Below, one piece after another: positions 1,471-24,616 of a stretch of DNA of 64,000 bases (the first letter of the stretch is position 1; every line of letters begins with the position of its first letter). A program made the position numbers and the translations under genes. The stretch is from Erysipelothrix sp. HDW6C. Its GTDB lineage: Bacteria > Bacillota_I > Bacilli_A > Erysipelotrichales > Erysipelotrichaceae. The notes under the pieces are model-generated. The model had not been told where the DNA came from, ran no database searches, and was given only the letters and a program-made list of their open reading frames with translations. The stretch covers positions 372,001-436,000 of the forward strand of contig NZ_CP049861.1 in NCBI RefSeq assembly GCF_011299615.1, given 5' to 3'.

Positions 1471-3274
1471 GGTTCATGTTCTCGATACACATCTTACCAA
1501 TATGATTGCTGCCGGTGAAGTAGTAGAACGTCCCGGTGGTATTATTAAGGAACTTGTTGAAAACTCAATCGATGCGAAAGCAACTCAGATTGAAGTGCGC
1601 ATCAGTGAAGGTGGTATGGGTTCGATTGAAGTGAGCGATAATGGCGAAGGCATGAGTGGGGAAGACCTTGTTCAGGCCTTTGAGCGCCACTCAACCAGTA
1701 AAATTTCTAACACACAAGATTTAAATGCAATTCATACGTTTGGATTTCGGGGAGAAGCCCTGCCCTCCATTGCATCCGTGAGTTACATTGAGGCAACAAC
1801 GAATGATGGTGAAACAAGCCATCGTCTTGTTATTGATAATGGAAAGAAAAGTGACGTTGAACGTTTTGCACGCAATGCAGGAACGACAATCTCAGTTCGA
1901 AACCTCTTTTTAAAGACTCCTGCTCGATTGAAGTATATAAAGAATGTTCACTATGAAACATCAATTATCCAAGATACGATGCAAAAATTTGCAATGAGTA
2001 ATCCTGCCATCGCCTTTTCATTTTACAATGAAGACAAACTTGCATTCCGCAGTTTTGGTCGCGATGACAGCTTGGATGTTTTTCATCGTATCTATGGTGG
2101 CGCAATATCGCAAGATACAGAGATATTCAGTGGTGAAAATTATGATTTCAAAATTGAGGGGATCATGGCTTTACCACAGCATAACCGCGCCAACCGCTAC
2201 GCAATTTGGCTGTACATCAATGATCGCATGATTCGCTATCCTAAAGCTCAAAAAGCAATTGTTGATGCTTATCGACGTCATATGCCTACCGATCGTTATC
2301 CGATTGTTGTCATGAAGATAACCGTAGATCCACAACTTGTTGATGTTAATGTGCACCCAAGCAAGTGGGAAATTAGACTTTCGAAGGAAGAACAATTAAT
2401 TGAGCTTATTCAATCCCAACTTGAATCCGTTTTGGATGCTCACATGCGTCCACAAAAAATAACATTCAAACCAACAAGCGAAATACCAGTGCAACAGGAC
2501 TTTAAGCAAGACTTACTCAATGACACCCAACCGCGCTATCCATTGTTTGATGTGAAGCCAACACCGATGATTTATGAGGAAGTCGTGGAAACGATTGTAC
2601 CGACAATGTCTGAAGTTGATGAAGTACCCATCGATAGTACACCACAACCAGAGATTGAAAATATCATAATGACTCCTGAACCAGAAGTAATTACCTATAA
2701 AATTGAACCGTTGAAAGTTCTGTCACAATTAAGTGGAAATTATATTCTTGCACAAGGTGATGCGGGACTCTATATTATTGATCAACATGCCGCTATGGAA
2801 CGCGTTCGTTATGAGTACTACCAAAATAAATTACTCAACCGTGATGTTCCGATGCAAGATTTTTTGATTCCCATGATGATTGAGGGGCGTAAAAACATCA
2901 TCAATCAATTGGCTAAAATTAACGATGCCTTCGCATCCTTCAACATTGAACTCGAATCTTTTGGGGATGATACATTAGTCTTGCGTTCAGTACCAGTCTG
3001 GATTGAAGACAATGAAGTTAAAGAGTTTGTGAATGAGGTGCTGGATATGTTTGAAGCGGATAAGAAAATTCGTGAAGAAGATATGCGTCGCAGTGTAATT
3101 GCAACACTGGCATGTCACTCATCGGTTCGCTTTAACGAGTATATGTCGATGGATGAAATGATGACGCTTGTTGAACAACTGCGTCAATGTGAACAACCAT
3201 TCCACTGTCCTCATGGAAGACCGACTTTTATTACAGTAGAACACAAACAACTCATCAAGGAATTCAAGCGATGA
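1463..3274 (+). CDS. mutL: DNA mismatch repair protein MutL
   Basis: GHKL-ATPase that links MutS to strand excision. N-terminal ATPase motifs are clear: ENSIDAKA, DNGEGM, and FGFRGEALPSIASV. VHPSKWEIRL closes the transducer domain. The C-terminal dimerisation domain carries DQHAAMERVRYE, which matches the DQHAx2Ex4E metal site of endonuclease-type MutL, and ends with FHCPHGRPT. An active endonuclease fits an organism without MutH. I start at ATG 1463 (603 aa) rather than ATG 1454, because the AGGAG at 1449-1453 is well spaced only for 1463. Overlaps mutS by 8 nt and miaA by 4 nt (ATGA). Confidence 0.96.
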   Translation: MSKVHVLDTHLTNMIAAGEVVERPGGIIKELVENSIDAKATQIEVRISEGGMGSIEVSDNGEGMSGEDLVQAFERHSTSKISNTQDLNAIHTFGFRGEALPSIASVSYIEATTNDGETSHRLVIDNGKKSDVERFARNAGTTISVRNLFLKTPARLKYIKNVHYETSIIQDTMQKFAMSNPAIAFSFYNEDKLAFRSFGRDDSLDVFHRIYGGAISQDTEIFSGENYDFKIEGIMALPQHNRANRYAIWLYINDRMIRYPKAQKAIVDAYRRHMPTDRYPIVVMKITVDPQLVDVNVHPSKWEIRLSKEEQLIELIQSQLESVLDAHMRPQKITFKPTSEIPVQQDFKQDLLNDTQPRYPLFDVKPTPMIYEEVVETIVPTMSEVDEVPIDSTPQPEIENIIMTPEPEVITYKIEPLKVLSQLSGNYILAQGDAGLYIIDQHAAMERVRYEYYQNKLLNRDVPMQDFLIPMMIEGRKNIINQLAKINDAFASFNIELESFGDDTLVLRSVPVWIEDNEVKEFVNEVLDMFEADKKIREEDMRRSVIATLACHSSVRFNEYMSMDEMMTLVEQLRQCEQPFHCPHGRPTFITVEHKQLIKEFKR

Positions 3275-18697: not shown

Positions 18698-21600
18698 ATG
18701 AAAAAAAGTAAATTTAGTAAGTTAATCAAATTGACAGTTGTAGGTGCACTTGGGATTTTGATGACATCACAATGGACACGACTTTTTGCTGAAGAGACAA
18801 AAAATGATAACGAAGTCGTGACAGAACCTATTGTTTCAGATGAAGAAACAGTTGTTGAAGACGAAGAAATTATCGATGAAGAACAAACTGTTGAAGATTC
18901 AGACGATGAAGTAGAGCGCAATACGGATGAACAAGAACTAGAAATAGAAGTAGAAATCGAACCACAAGACAATAGTGATGTTTCAAATTCGAGTACAGAA
19001 GATCTCACCCAGGATTCGGATTTGAATGATTGGATGCCTGATTTGGGTTTACAAGCGGAGATTGCGAAAACATTAAAGATTAACATCGCTGATCTCAATG
19101 AAACATCGATTCTGAGACTTGATACTCTCAGAATCAGCAGTTCTAAAACTGATTTTGATTTGACAGGGTTAGACAGAGCATTAAACCTTAAGAATCTGTA
19201 TATAAACCAAGCAAACTCAGTTACAAATGTTGAAATAGTGAATCAGTTGCCCAAGCTTGAGCATTTAGAAATTAGAGCAAATTTAACCTATCTCCCAATT
19301 TTAAATTCAGAAAGTCTTATCCGATTGCGAGTTCCTTACAATAATATTAGCAAAATTGAAGGACCAATGAACCTCCCAAATCTTATTAAACTCTCAATTT
19401 CCAGCAATCAAATTGAGTCTTTAGAAGCATTTTCAACACTCTATAATTTGAAGGATATTGAGATTGCGAGCAATCCAATCAGTGAGTTAAACGTACTTGA
19501 AAACTTTCCAAATTTGGAAAGAATATATATAGGCTCTGATAACGTGCCAGAAAGCGAATTCGCGCGCTTTTCAGCATTTCAGAATCTAGAATTCCTTCAT
19601 CTTGGAAATACAAGTTTGACAACGTTGGATTCCATTCCAACCTTGCCAAATCTCAATGCACTTTACATGAATTACGCTGCTGTGACAAATTTGAACAACA
19701 TCGGTCGATTTGAGAAACTTGATAACATTAATATTACATATTCTGCACTTGAAGATATCTCAGGCGTTAGCGAAGTGTACAATTTACGACTCTTCACAGT
19801 ATTTAGTAATCCAGGTATCAAAGACTACTCCCCCCTCGATAACCTTACGGGAATTGAAGGCCTCGATATCCGAAATAATCCGCTCGGAAAATTAGAAGGC
19901 GGCGTTGATTTCGTAAAAAAACATAAGAATTTAAAATCATTAGTTATTGAAAACTCATTTGTAGAAAATCTCGACTTCGTTACGGAACTTCCAAACCTTA
20001 GAACCCTTTGGGCAGGCGGTAATCGTATCTCAGATATTACAATACTGAATGGAAATACGACACTTGAATCTGTAAAACTTGAACAACAACGAATCGATGA
20101 TGACATTATTTTAAAAAAGAATACATATGATATAACAGAGAAAATTACAAGTGTTGATGGTAGTAACGTCGAAATCGGTGCAAATTCAGGAATAAATGCT
20201 CGAGCTCACTACAACGACGATAAATCCATAACATGGACAGTTGATAAAGGAGAATCGTGGGGACTATTTGCCAATACGTGGAGCACGAATGCAGTAATAA
20301 ATGGACGAAATGTTAACTATTCGGGACGTGTTTACAAAAGTTTTGAACGCGAGAAGAAAACCATTATCATAAATTATCGTGATCAAGAGGGTAACATGAT
20401 TGCAGATTCTAAAGAATTGACGGGTTTCTATGGGGATACACAGTCCGTCGCAACTGCCGTTAGTGGATGGACATTCATGGGAGAGCTCCCAATGAATGTG
20501 GTGTTTGAAGATGGAACTGATGAAGTAAATCTTGTATACACACAAACAAAAGGTGGCACGGTAACAATTAACTATGTTGACACCACTGGCGAACCGATTC
20601 AGGATCCCAAAACGATCACAGGATTTGTTAACGATCCATTTAATGTCACAGCGGATGACATCTATGGATGGAGCCTCAAGAAAACAACCGGTGTTACATC
20701 GGGAAAACTAACAACAAAAGAGCAAACAATCACATTTACCTACGGAGCAAAAAGAGTTCAACCTTTATACATTTATTTCTTGGATGAAAATGGTGAATCG
20801 ATTCGTCAAAGACGAAGGATAACTGGGAACTTTGGCGATACGTATGAATATGAAATTGAAAAAGTGACGGGATACGATTATGCAACTCATGATGGAACAC
20901 TGAGTGGAACGTTCGATGATACAGCGAAATACATTGAGGTGCATTATACACTTGCAGAAGGTGCTCCAGTAACGCTAAATTATGTTGACGAAAATGGCAA
21001 TACGCTTAAAGAATCGGAAACATTAACAGGAATGTATGGTGAGTGGTATTTCACGTCACCTGCTGAGATAAAAAATTGGGAATTTCAGACTGGTGAAGGT
21101 AGCATGAACGGAAAATTCACAGATGAACCAAAAACAATTACGTTTATCTATGGAAGAATCGCTGCACAACCAATCACCGTGCGTTATGTGGAATTTTTAG
21201 GGGATGATATTCAAGAACCAACGTACATTAATGGTTACCAAGGTGATCGCTATACTGTAGAAATTCCAGACATCAAAGGATGGACCATCGATTCAACAGA
21301 AGGTTCAACAATGGGCTATCTTGATGATAAACCGCATACGACAACAATAAGCTACCGTCGTATTGCGCCAAAATCAGTAACAGTTAACTACATTAATACT
21401 GATGGTGAAATCTTGAAGGAACCAACAACAATTACGGGTAACTTTGGAGATCCTTATAATGTGAGTGCACCGCAAATCAATGGATGGAAACATATTGAAA
21501 CACAAGGGGAGACACAAGGCGAAATTGATGGTGATGAACACACAATCACATTCGTCTATGAAATCCCGGATGCCGCTCCAATAACGGTGCGATTTGTTGA

Positions 21601-22210
21601 TGAAGCTAACAATTCGTTAAGGGATACTGTCTTAATCAATGGTAAAATCGGTGATACATTCTCAATAGAAATTCCTGAAATTAAGGATTGGATTATTAAG
21701 GAAATTGATGGTGAACTTGAAGGGGTTCTAACGGACTCTGCGACAACAGTCACCGTAACTTACGAACGCAAGCAAGGGATGCCAATTATAATTAAACTTA
21801 CAGATGAAAATGGCACTGAAATTGCTAAAGAAATGAGTATACAAGGGTACGTTGGTGAGCGCTATATTATAAAAGCACCACAAATCGAGGGCTATACATT
21901 TAAAGGATTCCTCATCGATGGTCGTACAAGCCGCTTCATGCGAACACTTGAGACATCTTTAGAGATTACCTTTGATGAGACATCACATGTTGTTTCCGTA
22001 AACTATACCAAAGACGCACTTACAAATAGTGATGATAAAGAAACAGAAGTGGAGGCATCAGACGATTTACCGAACGTAGATATCGATATTTCTAAAAACG
22101 ATGGTCCGCAACTTCCAATGACGGGAATGGGTACATCACTACTTTGGCTTGACGCTATTAGTATTGGGACTATCTTGCTTGCCGTTGCACGAAAGAAGAA
22201 AGAAAACTAA
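18698..22210 (+). CDS. LPXTG cell-wall surface protein: internalin-like LRR plus eight MucBP repeats
   Basis: 1170 aa. Signal peptide residues 1 to about 31 (hydrophobic core LTVVGALGILM), acidic Glu/Asp-rich spacer (about 32-105), leucine-rich repeats (about 120-480, 22-residue period such as LPNLIKLSISSNQIESLEAF), an Ig-like spacer, then eight MucBP-type repeats of about 68 residues (about 545-1100; VTVNYINTDGEILKEPTTI type). The sorting signal LPMTG is at about 1138-1142, followed by a hydrophobic helix and KKK tail. Sortase A would link it to peptidoglycan. Likely role: adhesion to host mucin or receptors (family inference). AT-rich leader of ~200 bp; AGAAGG ribosome site. Confidence 0.93.
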   Translation: MKKSKFSKLIKLTVVGALGILMTSQWTRLFAEETKNDNEVVTEPIVSDEETVVEDEEIIDEEQTVEDSDDEVERNTDEQELEIEVEIEPQDNSDVSNSSTEDLTQDSDLNDWMPDLGLQAEIAKTLKINIADLNETSILRLDTLRISSSKTDFDLTGLDRALNLKNLYINQANSVTNVEIVNQLPKLEHLEIRANLTYLPILNSESLIRLRVPYNNISKIEGPMNLPNLIKLSISSNQIESLEAFSTLYNLKDIEIASNPISELNVLENFPNLERIYIGSDNVPESEFARFSAFQNLEFLHLGNTSLTTLDSIPTLPNLNALYMNYAAVTNLNNIGRFEKLDNINITYSALEDISGVSEVYNLRLFTVFSNPGIKDYSPLDNLTGIEGLDIRNNPLGKLEGGVDFVKKHKNLKSLVIENSFVENLDFVTELPNLRTLWAGGNRISDITILNGNTTLESVKLEQQRIDDDIILKKNTYDITEKITSVDGSNVEIGANSGINARAHYNDDKSITWTVDKGESWGLFANTWSTNAVINGRNVNYSGRVYKSFEREKKTIIINYRDQEGNMIADSKELTGFYGDTQSVATAVSGWTFMGELPMNVVFEDGTDEVNLVYTQTKGGTVTINYVDTTGEPIQDPKTITGFVNDPFNVTADDIYGWSLKKTTGVTSGKLTTKEQTITFTYGAKRVQPLYIYFLDENGESIRQRRRITGNFGDTYEYEIEKVTGYDYATHDGTLSGTFDDTAKYIEVHYTLAEGAPVTLNYVDENGNTLKESETLTGMYGEWYFTSPAEIKNWEFQTGEGSMNGKFTDEPKTITFIYGRIAAQPITVRYVEFLGDDIQEPTYINGYQGDRYTVEIPDIKGWTIDSTEGSTMGYLDDKPHTTTISYRRIAPKSVTVNYINTDGEILKEPTTITGNFGDPYNVSAPQINGWKHIETQGETQGEIDGDEHTITFVYEIPDAAPITVRFVDEANNSLRDTVLINGKIGDTFSIEIPEIKDWIIKEIDGELEGVLTDSATTVTVTYERKQGMPIIIKLTDENGTEIAKEMSIQGYVGERYIIKAPQIEGYTFKGFLIDGRTSRFMRTLETSLEITFDETSHVVSVNYTKDALTNSDDKETEVEASDDLPNVDIDISKNDGPQLPMTGMGTSLLWLDAISIGTILLAVARKKKEN

Positions 22211-22237
22211 GAAACTGGATTAAATTCCAGTTTCTTT
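22209..22237 (+). terminator. Terminator of the LRR/MucBP gene
   Basis: 11-bp stem AAGAAACTGGA / TCCAGTTTCTT with 6-nt loop, short T-tract. Confidence 0.7.
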
Positions 22238-22297
22238 GCAAACACATGATAGTAATCTGTAAATTCTGGGTAGCATTATGGGATTTCGAACGCATTC

Positions 22298-22327
22298 CTT
22301 GAAGGCAATGGGATTCCCTTATATAAT
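22298..22327 (+). promoter_or_regulatory. Promoter of the riboswitch-deaminase transcript
   Basis: -35 TTGAAG (22298-22303), 18-bp spacer, -10 TATAAT (22322-22327). It places the transcription start about 8 nt before the riboswitch P1. Confidence 0.75.
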
Positions 22328-22341
22328 GAATGTATTAATCA

Positions 22342-22408
22342 CCAATTTAATACTCAAAATAGGGTTGAGTAGTTTCTACTGATGCACCGTAAAAGCATCA
22401 ACAATTGG
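22342..22408 (+). promoter_or_regulatory. Purine riboswitch aptamer, guanine/hypoxanthine type
   Basis: All parts of the purine aptamer fit: P1 CCAATT/AATTGG (22342-22347, 22403-22408), J1/2 TAAT, P2 ACTCAA/TTGAGT with 7-nt loop AATAGGG, J2/3 AGTTTCTAC (22371-22379), P3 TGATGC/GCATCA with loop ACCGTAAAA, and J3/1 AC. The loop pairs GG/CC needed for the loop-loop contact are present. The base equivalent to position 74 is C, which specifies guanine or hypoxanthine rather than adenine, and U51 of J2/3 is kept, arguing against deoxyguanosine. No U-run terminator follows. Instead ATTGGGG (P1 3' side) can pair with CCTCAAT (22423-22429), and TCCTC there can pair with the GAGGA of the ribosome site, so translational control is plausible. 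Confidence 0.88.
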
Positions 22409-22475
22409 GGACACACACTTTTCCTCAATCGATTCGTGATTAATAGAAGTTTTACTTGTTACAAAGGAGGACACT

Positions 22476-23489
22476 ATGACACACGTAACAAAATCTTTTA
22501 TTTATGGCATTCCGAAAGCGGAATTGCATTTGCACCTGGAGGGGTCGTTGGAACCAGAATTGAAACTCCAACTTGCAACGAAGAATGGTATTGATATTGG
22601 GCAAACGACTGTAGAGGAAGTTCAGAAAAGTTATCAATTTAATGATCTATCATCATTCTTGGGAGTATACTATCCAGCGATGAATGTACTTCAAGAAGAG
22701 GAAGATTTCTACAATCTGGCAATGGCATACTTACGCCGCGTCAAAGAGCACAATGTTCGCTATGTAGAATTGTTCTTTGATCCACAAGCGCATACTACGC
22801 GTGGTGTTGCATTCGAAACAATTATTAATGGCTACTATCGTGCAACACAAGATGCAAAAGAGATGGGCATTCGTGCGCATTTAATTATGTGCTTCTTGCG
22901 TGATATGAGTGCTGAATCGGCAATGGAACATTATGAAATGTCGTTACCATATCATGAACTCATTCTTGGAGTTGGTTTGGATTCGGACGAACGTAACAAT
23001 CCACCATTAAAATTCCAAGAGATATTTGCACGTGCCAAGGAAGATGGACTCCATCTTACAATGCATTGTGATATTGACCAAGAGCATTCAATCCAAAATA
23101 TTCACGATGTACTTCATGTTATTGGTGTTGAACGCATTGATCATGGAACAAACATTGTTGAAGATCCAAAACTTGTTGATTATGTCATCGAGCATAATAT
23201 TGGATTTACATGTTGCCCTGTATCCAATGGTTTTGTGACCAAGGATATGAAGGGCAAAGAAATTGTCGAATTACTTCATAAAGGCGCAAAGGTAACTGTG
23301 AATTCAGACGACCCAGCCTACTTCCAAAGCTACATTTCAGATGACATGTTCGCTTTAGCAGAAAAAGAAAATTTAACCGAAGCCGATATTATTCAACTTG
23401 CGAAGAACTCATTTGAAATTGCATGGATGAGTGATGAGGATAAGAAAGTCTATCTCGATGAGATTGATGCTTACGTAAGCGCACAATAA
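22476..23489 (+). CDS. Adenosine/adenine deaminase family protein with altered catalytic motif
   Basis: 337 aa amidohydrolase. The metal-binding HLHLEG (KAELHLHLEGSLEPEL) and the late VNSDDPAYF aspartate motif are present, as is ERIDHGTNI. LEPEL, MCFLRDMSAESA and GVGLDSDE resemble adenine deaminases (adenine to hypoxanthine plus ammonia) more than adenosine deaminases. The usual HAGE motif with the catalytic Glu is replaced by MHCDIDQ, so substrate and activity need care. AAAGGAGG is present. A guanine-type riboswitch controls it, which fits purine salvage, since hypoxanthine would be sensed. Confidence 0.82.
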   Translation: MTHVTKSFIYGIPKAELHLHLEGSLEPELKLQLATKNGIDIGQTTVEEVQKSYQFNDLSSFLGVYYPAMNVLQEEEDFYNLAMAYLRRVKEHNVRYVELFFDPQAHTTRGVAFETIINGYYRATQDAKEMGIRAHLIMCFLRDMSAESAMEHYEMSLPYHELILGVGLDSDERNNPPLKFQEIFARAKEDGLHLTMHCDIDQEHSIQNIHDVLHVIGVERIDHGTNIVEDPKLVDYVIEHNIGFTCCPVSNGFVTKDMKGKEIVELLHKGAKVTVNSDDPAYFQSYISDDMFALAEKENLTEADIIQLAKNSFEIAWMSDEDKKVYLDEIDAYVSAQ

Positions 23490-23502
23490 AATACACTAAG
23501 AG

Positions 23503-23532
23503 ACAGAAGGGACCGTAAACCTTCTGTTTTTT
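23503..23532 (+). terminator. Terminator of the deaminase gene
   Basis: 8-bp stem ACAGAAGG (23503-23510) / CCTTCTGT (23520-23527) with T6 tail. Confidence 0.9.
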
Positions 23533-23624
23533 ACGCAACTTAACCTCAAAAAGAGACAACTTACTGAAAAGAAAGGCATCCGCGAAAATGGAGTGGTATG
23601 ATTGCGTTAGATGGAGGATATCCC

Positions 23625-24494: not shown

Positions 24495-24510
24495 ATAAAT
24501 AACAAAAGAC

Positions 24511-24604
24511 CTTTAACATTGTCCTGTGAGACAGCGAAGGGAAGAGTAAATATCATTCATTAGTAGCTAATGAGTCTCTTTTCGCGCAAAAGAGGCTCTT
24601 TTTT
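24511..24604 (+). promoter_or_regulatory. PyrR-dependent attenuator in front of pyrR
   Basis: The PyrR-binding hairpin has the hexaloop CTGTGA (consensus CNGNGA) closed by GTC/GAC (24521-24532), with lower stem CCTTT/AAGGG. The terminator is an 11-bp stem (24572-24582 / 24588-24598, loop CGCGC) plus T6. GAGAC of the binding hairpin can pair with GTCTC of the terminator to form the antiterminator. High UMP would let PyrR bind and cause termination. Confidence 0.9.
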
Positions 24605-24616
24605 ATGGAGGATATT

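Follow-up and report, generated by a model that had tools for sequence, protein, structure and literature searches.

We favor, and consider probable, the explanation that a leader RNA in the window (the whole 64-kb stretch of DNA analyzed here, 64,000 nucleotides) acts as a product-sensing translational OFF switch: a guanine-class riboswitch placed on an adenine-deaminase-type gene and sensing hypoxanthine, the likely product of the enzyme, or guanine. Without ligand, the 5′ strand of aptamer helix P1 would be held by positions 22432-22444 in one helix, PX, and its 3′ strand by positions 22423-22429 in a second helix, H. Since H holds the pyrimidine strand, that strand would be sequestered and the ribosome site would be free. 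With ligand, P1 would close, H would be lost or shortened, and the freed pyrimidine strand would cover the Shine-Dalgarno sequence and turn translation off. Plentiful hypoxanthine or guanine would then shut off synthesis of the deaminase, a form of product feedback.

A complete guanine-class aptamer in the leader

A scan of the 64-kb window with Rfam covariance models gave one match that reached its gathering score, the purine riboswitch RF00167 at 22323-22424; the match is full length and scores 72.1 bits where 37 are required. Junctions J1/2 (UAA) and J2/3 (GUUUCUAC) and loop L3 (CCGUAAA) were read as intact in the alignment, and the core (J1/2, J2/3, J3/1 and L2/L3) fits the RF00167 consensus with the exception of pair 21-75, which is U-A. 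Specificity position 74, read by eye from the Rfam alignment, is a C (C22402). We therefore assign the aptamer to the guanine class, with guanine or hypoxanthine as the predicted ligand, and an adenine-type reading was rejected on the same base. A previous, sequence-only reading of this DNA had described a complete aptamer with C at the specificity position, and the full-length match bears this out.

From a promoter-like site just upstream, the transcript would be expected to start near 22332-22335, and the aptamer ends about 50 nt ahead of the ATG at 22476. The features of the leader and gene are as follows.

22299-22327, + strand: promoter-like TTGAAG-17-TATAAT (consensus scan, 10/12)
22334-22346, + strand: 5′ strand of PX, AUUAAUCACCAAU, overlapping the 5′ strand of P1 (reading, free-state fold, covariation over eight leaders)
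22342-22347, + strand: 5′ strand of P1, CCAAUU, in which U22347 is U21 (Rfam alignment and reading)
22351-22371, + strand: P2-L2 hairpin (Rfam alignment, RNAalifold)
22372-22379, + strand: J2/3, GUUUCUAC (Rfam alignment)
22380-22400, + strand: P3-L3 hairpin (Rfam alignment, RNAalifold)
22402, + strand: specificity base C74, guanine class (Rfam alignment; C in 63/63 aptamers read)
22403-22408, + strand: 3′ strand of P1, AAUUGG, in which A22403 is A75 and pairs with U21 (reading; U21-A75 in 8/8 deaminase leaders)
22404-22410, + strand: 5′ strand of H, AUUGGGG (pairing probability 0.96 free, 0.39 bound)
22422-22429, + strand: pyrimidine (mid) strand UCCUCAAU, with the 3′ strand of H at 22423-22429 and the candidate anti-Shine-Dalgarno UCCUC at 22422-22426
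22432-22444, + strand: 3′ strand of PX, AUUCGUGAUUAAU (free-state fold, covariation, RNAalifold)
22466-22470, + strand: Shine-Dalgarno GGAGG, 5 nt ahead of the ATG (reading)
22476-23489, + strand: adenine-deaminase-like gene, 337 aa, TIGR01430/PF00962 family (profile matches; start agrees with orthologue L034)

The gene product resembles adenine deaminases

Profile searches place the product (337 aa) in TIGR01430 (332.8 bits) and PF00962. When a profile of 14 relatives was compared with solved structures, the nearest was 3ou8 (E 1.9e-104), followed by 3rys (E 4.5e-94) and then by 6n9m, an adenosine deaminase (E 9.3e-43). We take 3ou8 to be Pa0148, which is reportedly the enzyme studied by Goble et al. 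in 2011. In a structure comparison, an AlphaFold2 model of the product (mean pLDDT 93.2) matched 3rys first, with Z 46.7 and an rmsd of 1.6 over 324 residues; the title of that entry reads "adenine deaminase (AAur1117)". By these matches, the product groups with solved adenine and not adenosine deaminases. The enzyme therefore probably converts adenine to hypoxanthine, which would be its direct product.

In adenosine and adenine deaminases, the glutamate of the HAGE stretch is catalytic. All 14 aligned relatives, which come from Firmicutes, Actinomycetota and Acetobacteraceae, carry HCDIDQ (residues 197-202 in the product of the window gene) in place of this stretch, a two-residue insertion relative to the H-A-G-E of solved relatives. 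The HCDIDQ proteins apparently form a subfamily without a characterized member. Given this replacement, we regard the reaction as likely rather than proven and call the product adenine-deaminase-like. The earlier assignment to an adenosine/adenine deaminase family that makes hypoxanthine is upheld by 3rys and 3ou8 being nearest but is weakened by the altered catalytic stretch. The same alteration in 14 of 14 relatives is what speaks for an enzyme that deaminates some other purine (e.g., isoguanine, 2,6-diaminopurine or a methylated adenine), so that control would not be simple hypoxanthine feedback, a reading compatible with an OFF switch. We consider such a substrate unlikely, though worth weighing, given that 3rys and 3ou8 match best in fold and sequence and that ade-type deaminases of the genus also sit behind purine switches (see below).

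We searched 315 genomes of the order and found the gene (E up to 1e-50) in eight, seven of which have an RF00167 match just upstream; the exception is L112 in genome G061. A further 44 relatives were found and 14 of them were scanned for RNA families: L107 carries the switch and the other 13 do not. The deaminase leaders compared below are those of the window, L034, L035, L107, L109, L110, L111 and L113. In a tree of 27 proteins, the eight switch-bearing genes fall on one side of a single branch (support 88/97), which is compatible with a single gain of the switch. The gene copies in G002 and G003 are closer to L109, a gene from another genus, than to the window gene, and this nearness hints at transfer.

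Two alternative helices predicted to capture both strands of P1

PX joins 22334-22346 with 22432-22444 in 12 of 13 pairs, as read from the sequence, and H joins AUUGGGG (22404-22410) with CCUCAAU (22423-22429) in seven pairs, one of them G-U. The free-state fold of the window leader consists of PX, P2, P3 and H. Among 200 dinucleotide shuffles of the window platform, none reached PX and two reached H. The AUUGGGG/CCUCAAU helix had been proposed from the sequence, and these results indicate that it is real; the proposal missed the other half of the alternative fold, PX, which captures the 5′ strand of P1.

Across the eight deaminase leaders, 85.6% of PX cells are paired and five pairs have changed on both sides, whereas slid versions of PX have at most two such pairs. 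The covariation score of PX in this alignment, whose rows are not independent (L034 and L035 are nearly identical), is 0.266 compared to a shuffled mean of 0.194, and 0 of 500 shuffles scored as high; RNAalifold also picked PX unprompted. H was left out of the covariation count because its columns in L107 and L110 are shifted in the alignment. With one row per lineage, comparison with platform shuffles gave Fisher p values of 3e-5 to 2e-4 for PX and 0.011 to 0.017 for H.

The loci were also surveyed for capture of the P1 5′ strand, folding only the 75 nt after J3/1 and dropping three of 66 loci (L004, L058 and L063). At most 3 of 60 shuffles were as high in 4/8 deaminase leaders, 7/10 permease-B leaders and 14/45 other leaders, and within these 75 nt no excess of PX was seen for L111 and L113. 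Such capture is common among the remaining purine switches of the genus and occurs in the family as well, and PX as a unique novelty was rejected.

Predicted masking of the ribosome site in the deaminase leaders

The ribosome site GAGGA (22467-22471) can form five pairs with UCCUC (22422-22426). We folded each of the eight leaders up to the AUG with the aptamer either free or imposed (bound). With the aptamer imposed, the Shine-Dalgarno sequence is masked in seven of the eight leaders, the window being the exception. Pairing between the Shine-Dalgarno and mid strands went from 0.00 free to 0.01 bound in the window, from 0.17 to 0.92 in L034, 0.01 to 0.74 in L035, 0.09 to 0.97 in L107, 0.75 to 1.00 in L109, 0.14 to 0.99 in L110 and 0.61 to 0.96 in L111, and was 1.00 in both states in L113. 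The change in masking thus exceeds 0.6 in four leaders and is 0.25 to 0.35 in two, while L113 is masked in both states. When 27 nt of coding sequence were added, L034, L035, L111 and L113 were masked in both states, and L107, L109 and L110 still changed.

Bound masking, counted here over a wider pairing range than the free and bound figures above, was reached by platform shuffles in 126 of 200 cases for the window, 26 for L034, 60 for L035, 8 for L107, 2 for L109, 3 for L110, 35 for L111 and 0 for L113. With one row per lineage, the combined Fisher p for bound masking was 0.0008; the free-to-bound difference was weak against shuffles (p 0.05 to 0.2, window included, one row per lineage). Translational OFF control is therefore supported for the family, and the window copy shares in that support only through descent, barring a pseudoknot. 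With the aptamer imposed, 126 of 200 platform shuffles pair the window's Shine-Dalgarno sequence at least as well as its own 5-bp mask, and the GAGGA/UCCUC pairing was rejected as proof of switching. Since this mask is no better than chance, we infer the last step in the window from the leaders of its relatives. The earlier proposal that CCUCAAU can mask GAGGA, with control probably at translation, finds its backing in the seven related leaders and not in the window taken alone.

It is conceivable, though in our view rather unlikely, that the window aptamer binds its ligand with weakened or changed coupling, outer PX staying closed and the junction alone moving, so that translation barely responds or masking is left to a pseudoknot. 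Outer PX in the window is indeed at 0.99 free and 0.95 bound, exposure of the Shine-Dalgarno sequence is 0.33 in both states (folded to the AUG) and the mask does not exceed shuffles. The 5-bp mask can be forced only at a price of about 3 kcal/mol, and no other leader among the eight has so weak a platform-Shine-Dalgarno duplex (-7.7, compared with -9.4 to -16.4 in the others). However, PX and H in the window surpass shuffles (reached in 0 and 2 of 200), H falls from 0.96 to 0.39 once the aptamer is imposed, and 7/7 relatives end masked; moreover, nested folding cannot score a pseudoknot and thus cannot show masking of that type.

Improbable transcriptional control and a possible link to permease switches

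Control by transcription or mRNA decay (Rho, RNase), in place of ribosome access, would be in keeping with the dominance of transcription attenuation in Firmicutes (PMC2258182). Sister permease leaders form a local hairpin with a U-tract when the aptamer is imposed, and short T-runs, found by reading, are kept in L111 and L113. Yet, in agreement with the sequence-only reading, no terminator-like site is present on the + strand from 22200 to 23620, which led us to reject intrinsic-terminator control (an xpt-type transcriptional OFF switch), and the mid strand is complementary to the ribosome site in the seven relatives. We hold control by transcription or mRNA decay to be improbable. An ON switch, in which ligand would increase expression as it does for the adenine-sensing add switch (PMC8191784), is very improbable, since imposing the aptamer never exposes the Shine-Dalgarno sequence more in any of the eight deaminase leaders.

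The core pair suggests a tie between the deaminase leaders and the permease switches. It was read in 63 of 66 loci: C74 is found in all 63 aptamers and the usual A-U orientation of pair 21-75 in 48, whereas the pair is U-A in all eight deaminase leaders and in five permease leaders. The permease leaders with U21-A75 also have PX and H. In the sister permease leaders a local hairpin and U-tract form upon imposing the aptamer, and deaminase leaders are without them. The deaminase switch may thus be an offshoot of the permease switches in which the terminator was lost and the pyrimidine strand was redirected to the ribosome site.

In seven permease switches (L003, L013, L021, L023, L025, L028 and L031), P1 has only three Watson-Crick pairs followed by an A-C mismatch, and PX is completed after the U-tract of the terminator.

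Purine switches and purine salvage in the genus

Four purine switches were found in the genome of the window: two ahead of permease genes (called by reading), the one described here, and a fourth that precedes a gene for an ade-type adenine deaminase and is separated from it by a 76-aa ORF. Genes of the ade type lie behind a purine switch in G000, G002, G003 and G004, the G004 switch scoring 39.6 bits in one scan and being unlisted in another. In five further genomes (G001, G005, G006, G007 and G011), the distance from a purine switch to an ade-type gene downstream on the same strand is about 3.7 kb. The ORFs were read in G006 and G007, where they form an apparent ABC-transporter operon ending in the ade-type gene; G001, G005 and G011 were compared by coordinates only. 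The genus thus places an unrelated second kind of adenine deaminase behind the same C74 sensor class.

A C74 switch upstream of an ade-type (amidohydrolase) deaminase is seen in L134, L135, L136 and L137 (the latter at G000:C1:944800-947600, aptamer 2000-2096, minus strand), and in three species a poorly conserved ORF of 76-85 aa separates switch and gene. In the L137 leader, the 5′ strand of P1 seems to be captured by a pairing peculiar to that leader (AUUCCG/CGGAAU). Tandem purine aptamers 23-24 nt apart (L138/L141 in G006, and also in G001, G005 and G011; single in G007, L142) precede the apparent ABC-transporter operon ending in the ade-type gene, and both are C74 in G006. Purine switches also precede a gene with purE-like first codons, by reading only, in G009 (L026) and G008 (L027).

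Of 13 genomes from the genus, four have a full match to purH, and G000, G002 and G003, the three with the deaminase gene, are not among them; hpt is present in all 13. Adenine salvage via hypoxanthine is therefore plausible, and a deaminase gated by guanine or hypoxanthine would fit purine salvage.

Elsewhere in the window, a PyrR binding site (RF00515) at 24506-24606 scores 45.7 bits against a gathering score of 54 (E 2e-4) just ahead of pyrR and the pyr operon. Upstream of the leader, 18698-22210 encodes a 1170-aa surface protein with leucine-rich repeats, eight MucBP domains and an LPMTG-like end.

Comparison with known purine switches

The sensor is of a well-known type; its use on a deaminase gene and its mode of switching look unusual. 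With the Bacillus subtilis xpt-pbuX/yxjA type (RF00167), the window leader shares the C74 aptamer class and, as predicted, the OFF logic. In yxjA, a guanine OFF switch, a central helix competes with P1 (PMC9756952), and the window leader likewise has a free-state helix that competes with P1. Unlike this type, it lacks a terminator, captures both P1 strands, has a deaminase as target, probably has ribosome access as output and has its 21-75 core pair inverted. The add switch of Vibrio vulnificus senses adenine and is a translational ON switch (PMC8191784). Both that switch and the window's place a purine aptamer ahead of a gene of the adenosine/adenine deaminase superfamily, with translational control (predicted in the window), but add senses the substrate adenine and turns on, whereas the window aptamer has C74, faces the guanine/hypoxanthine product side and is predicted to turn off. 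Closest to home are the permease switches of the genus (L003, L013, L021, L023-L025, L028, L030 and L031), which share the aptamer style, PX and H, five of them with U21-A75, and, unlike the deaminase leaders, retain a local hairpin and U-tract. In the open-access literature that we searched, no adenine or adenosine deaminase gene is named as carrying a guanine riboswitch; such a report may be in print.

Beyond the window, we tentatively suggest, with less confidence than we place in the OFF switch itself, that a riboswitch lineage with U21-A75 couples ligand binding to translation through a moving three-way junction, in which PX, H and P1 exchange pairs, and that it moves as a cassette with the HCDIDQ deaminase for product-sensing control of adenine breakdown. 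The eight natural leaders, with their exchangeable set of PX, H and P1, bear on how the output of a purine aptamer shifts from a terminator to control of the ribosome site, and the inverted core pair that they share bears on whether binding depends on the A21-U75 orientation. The textbook purine switch of this gene superfamily senses adenine and turns expression on; in the window, end-product shut-off appears to be the task of a guanine-class aptamer. If true, the junction-moving U21-A75 lineage would be the product-sensing reverse of the adenine-sensing add switch.
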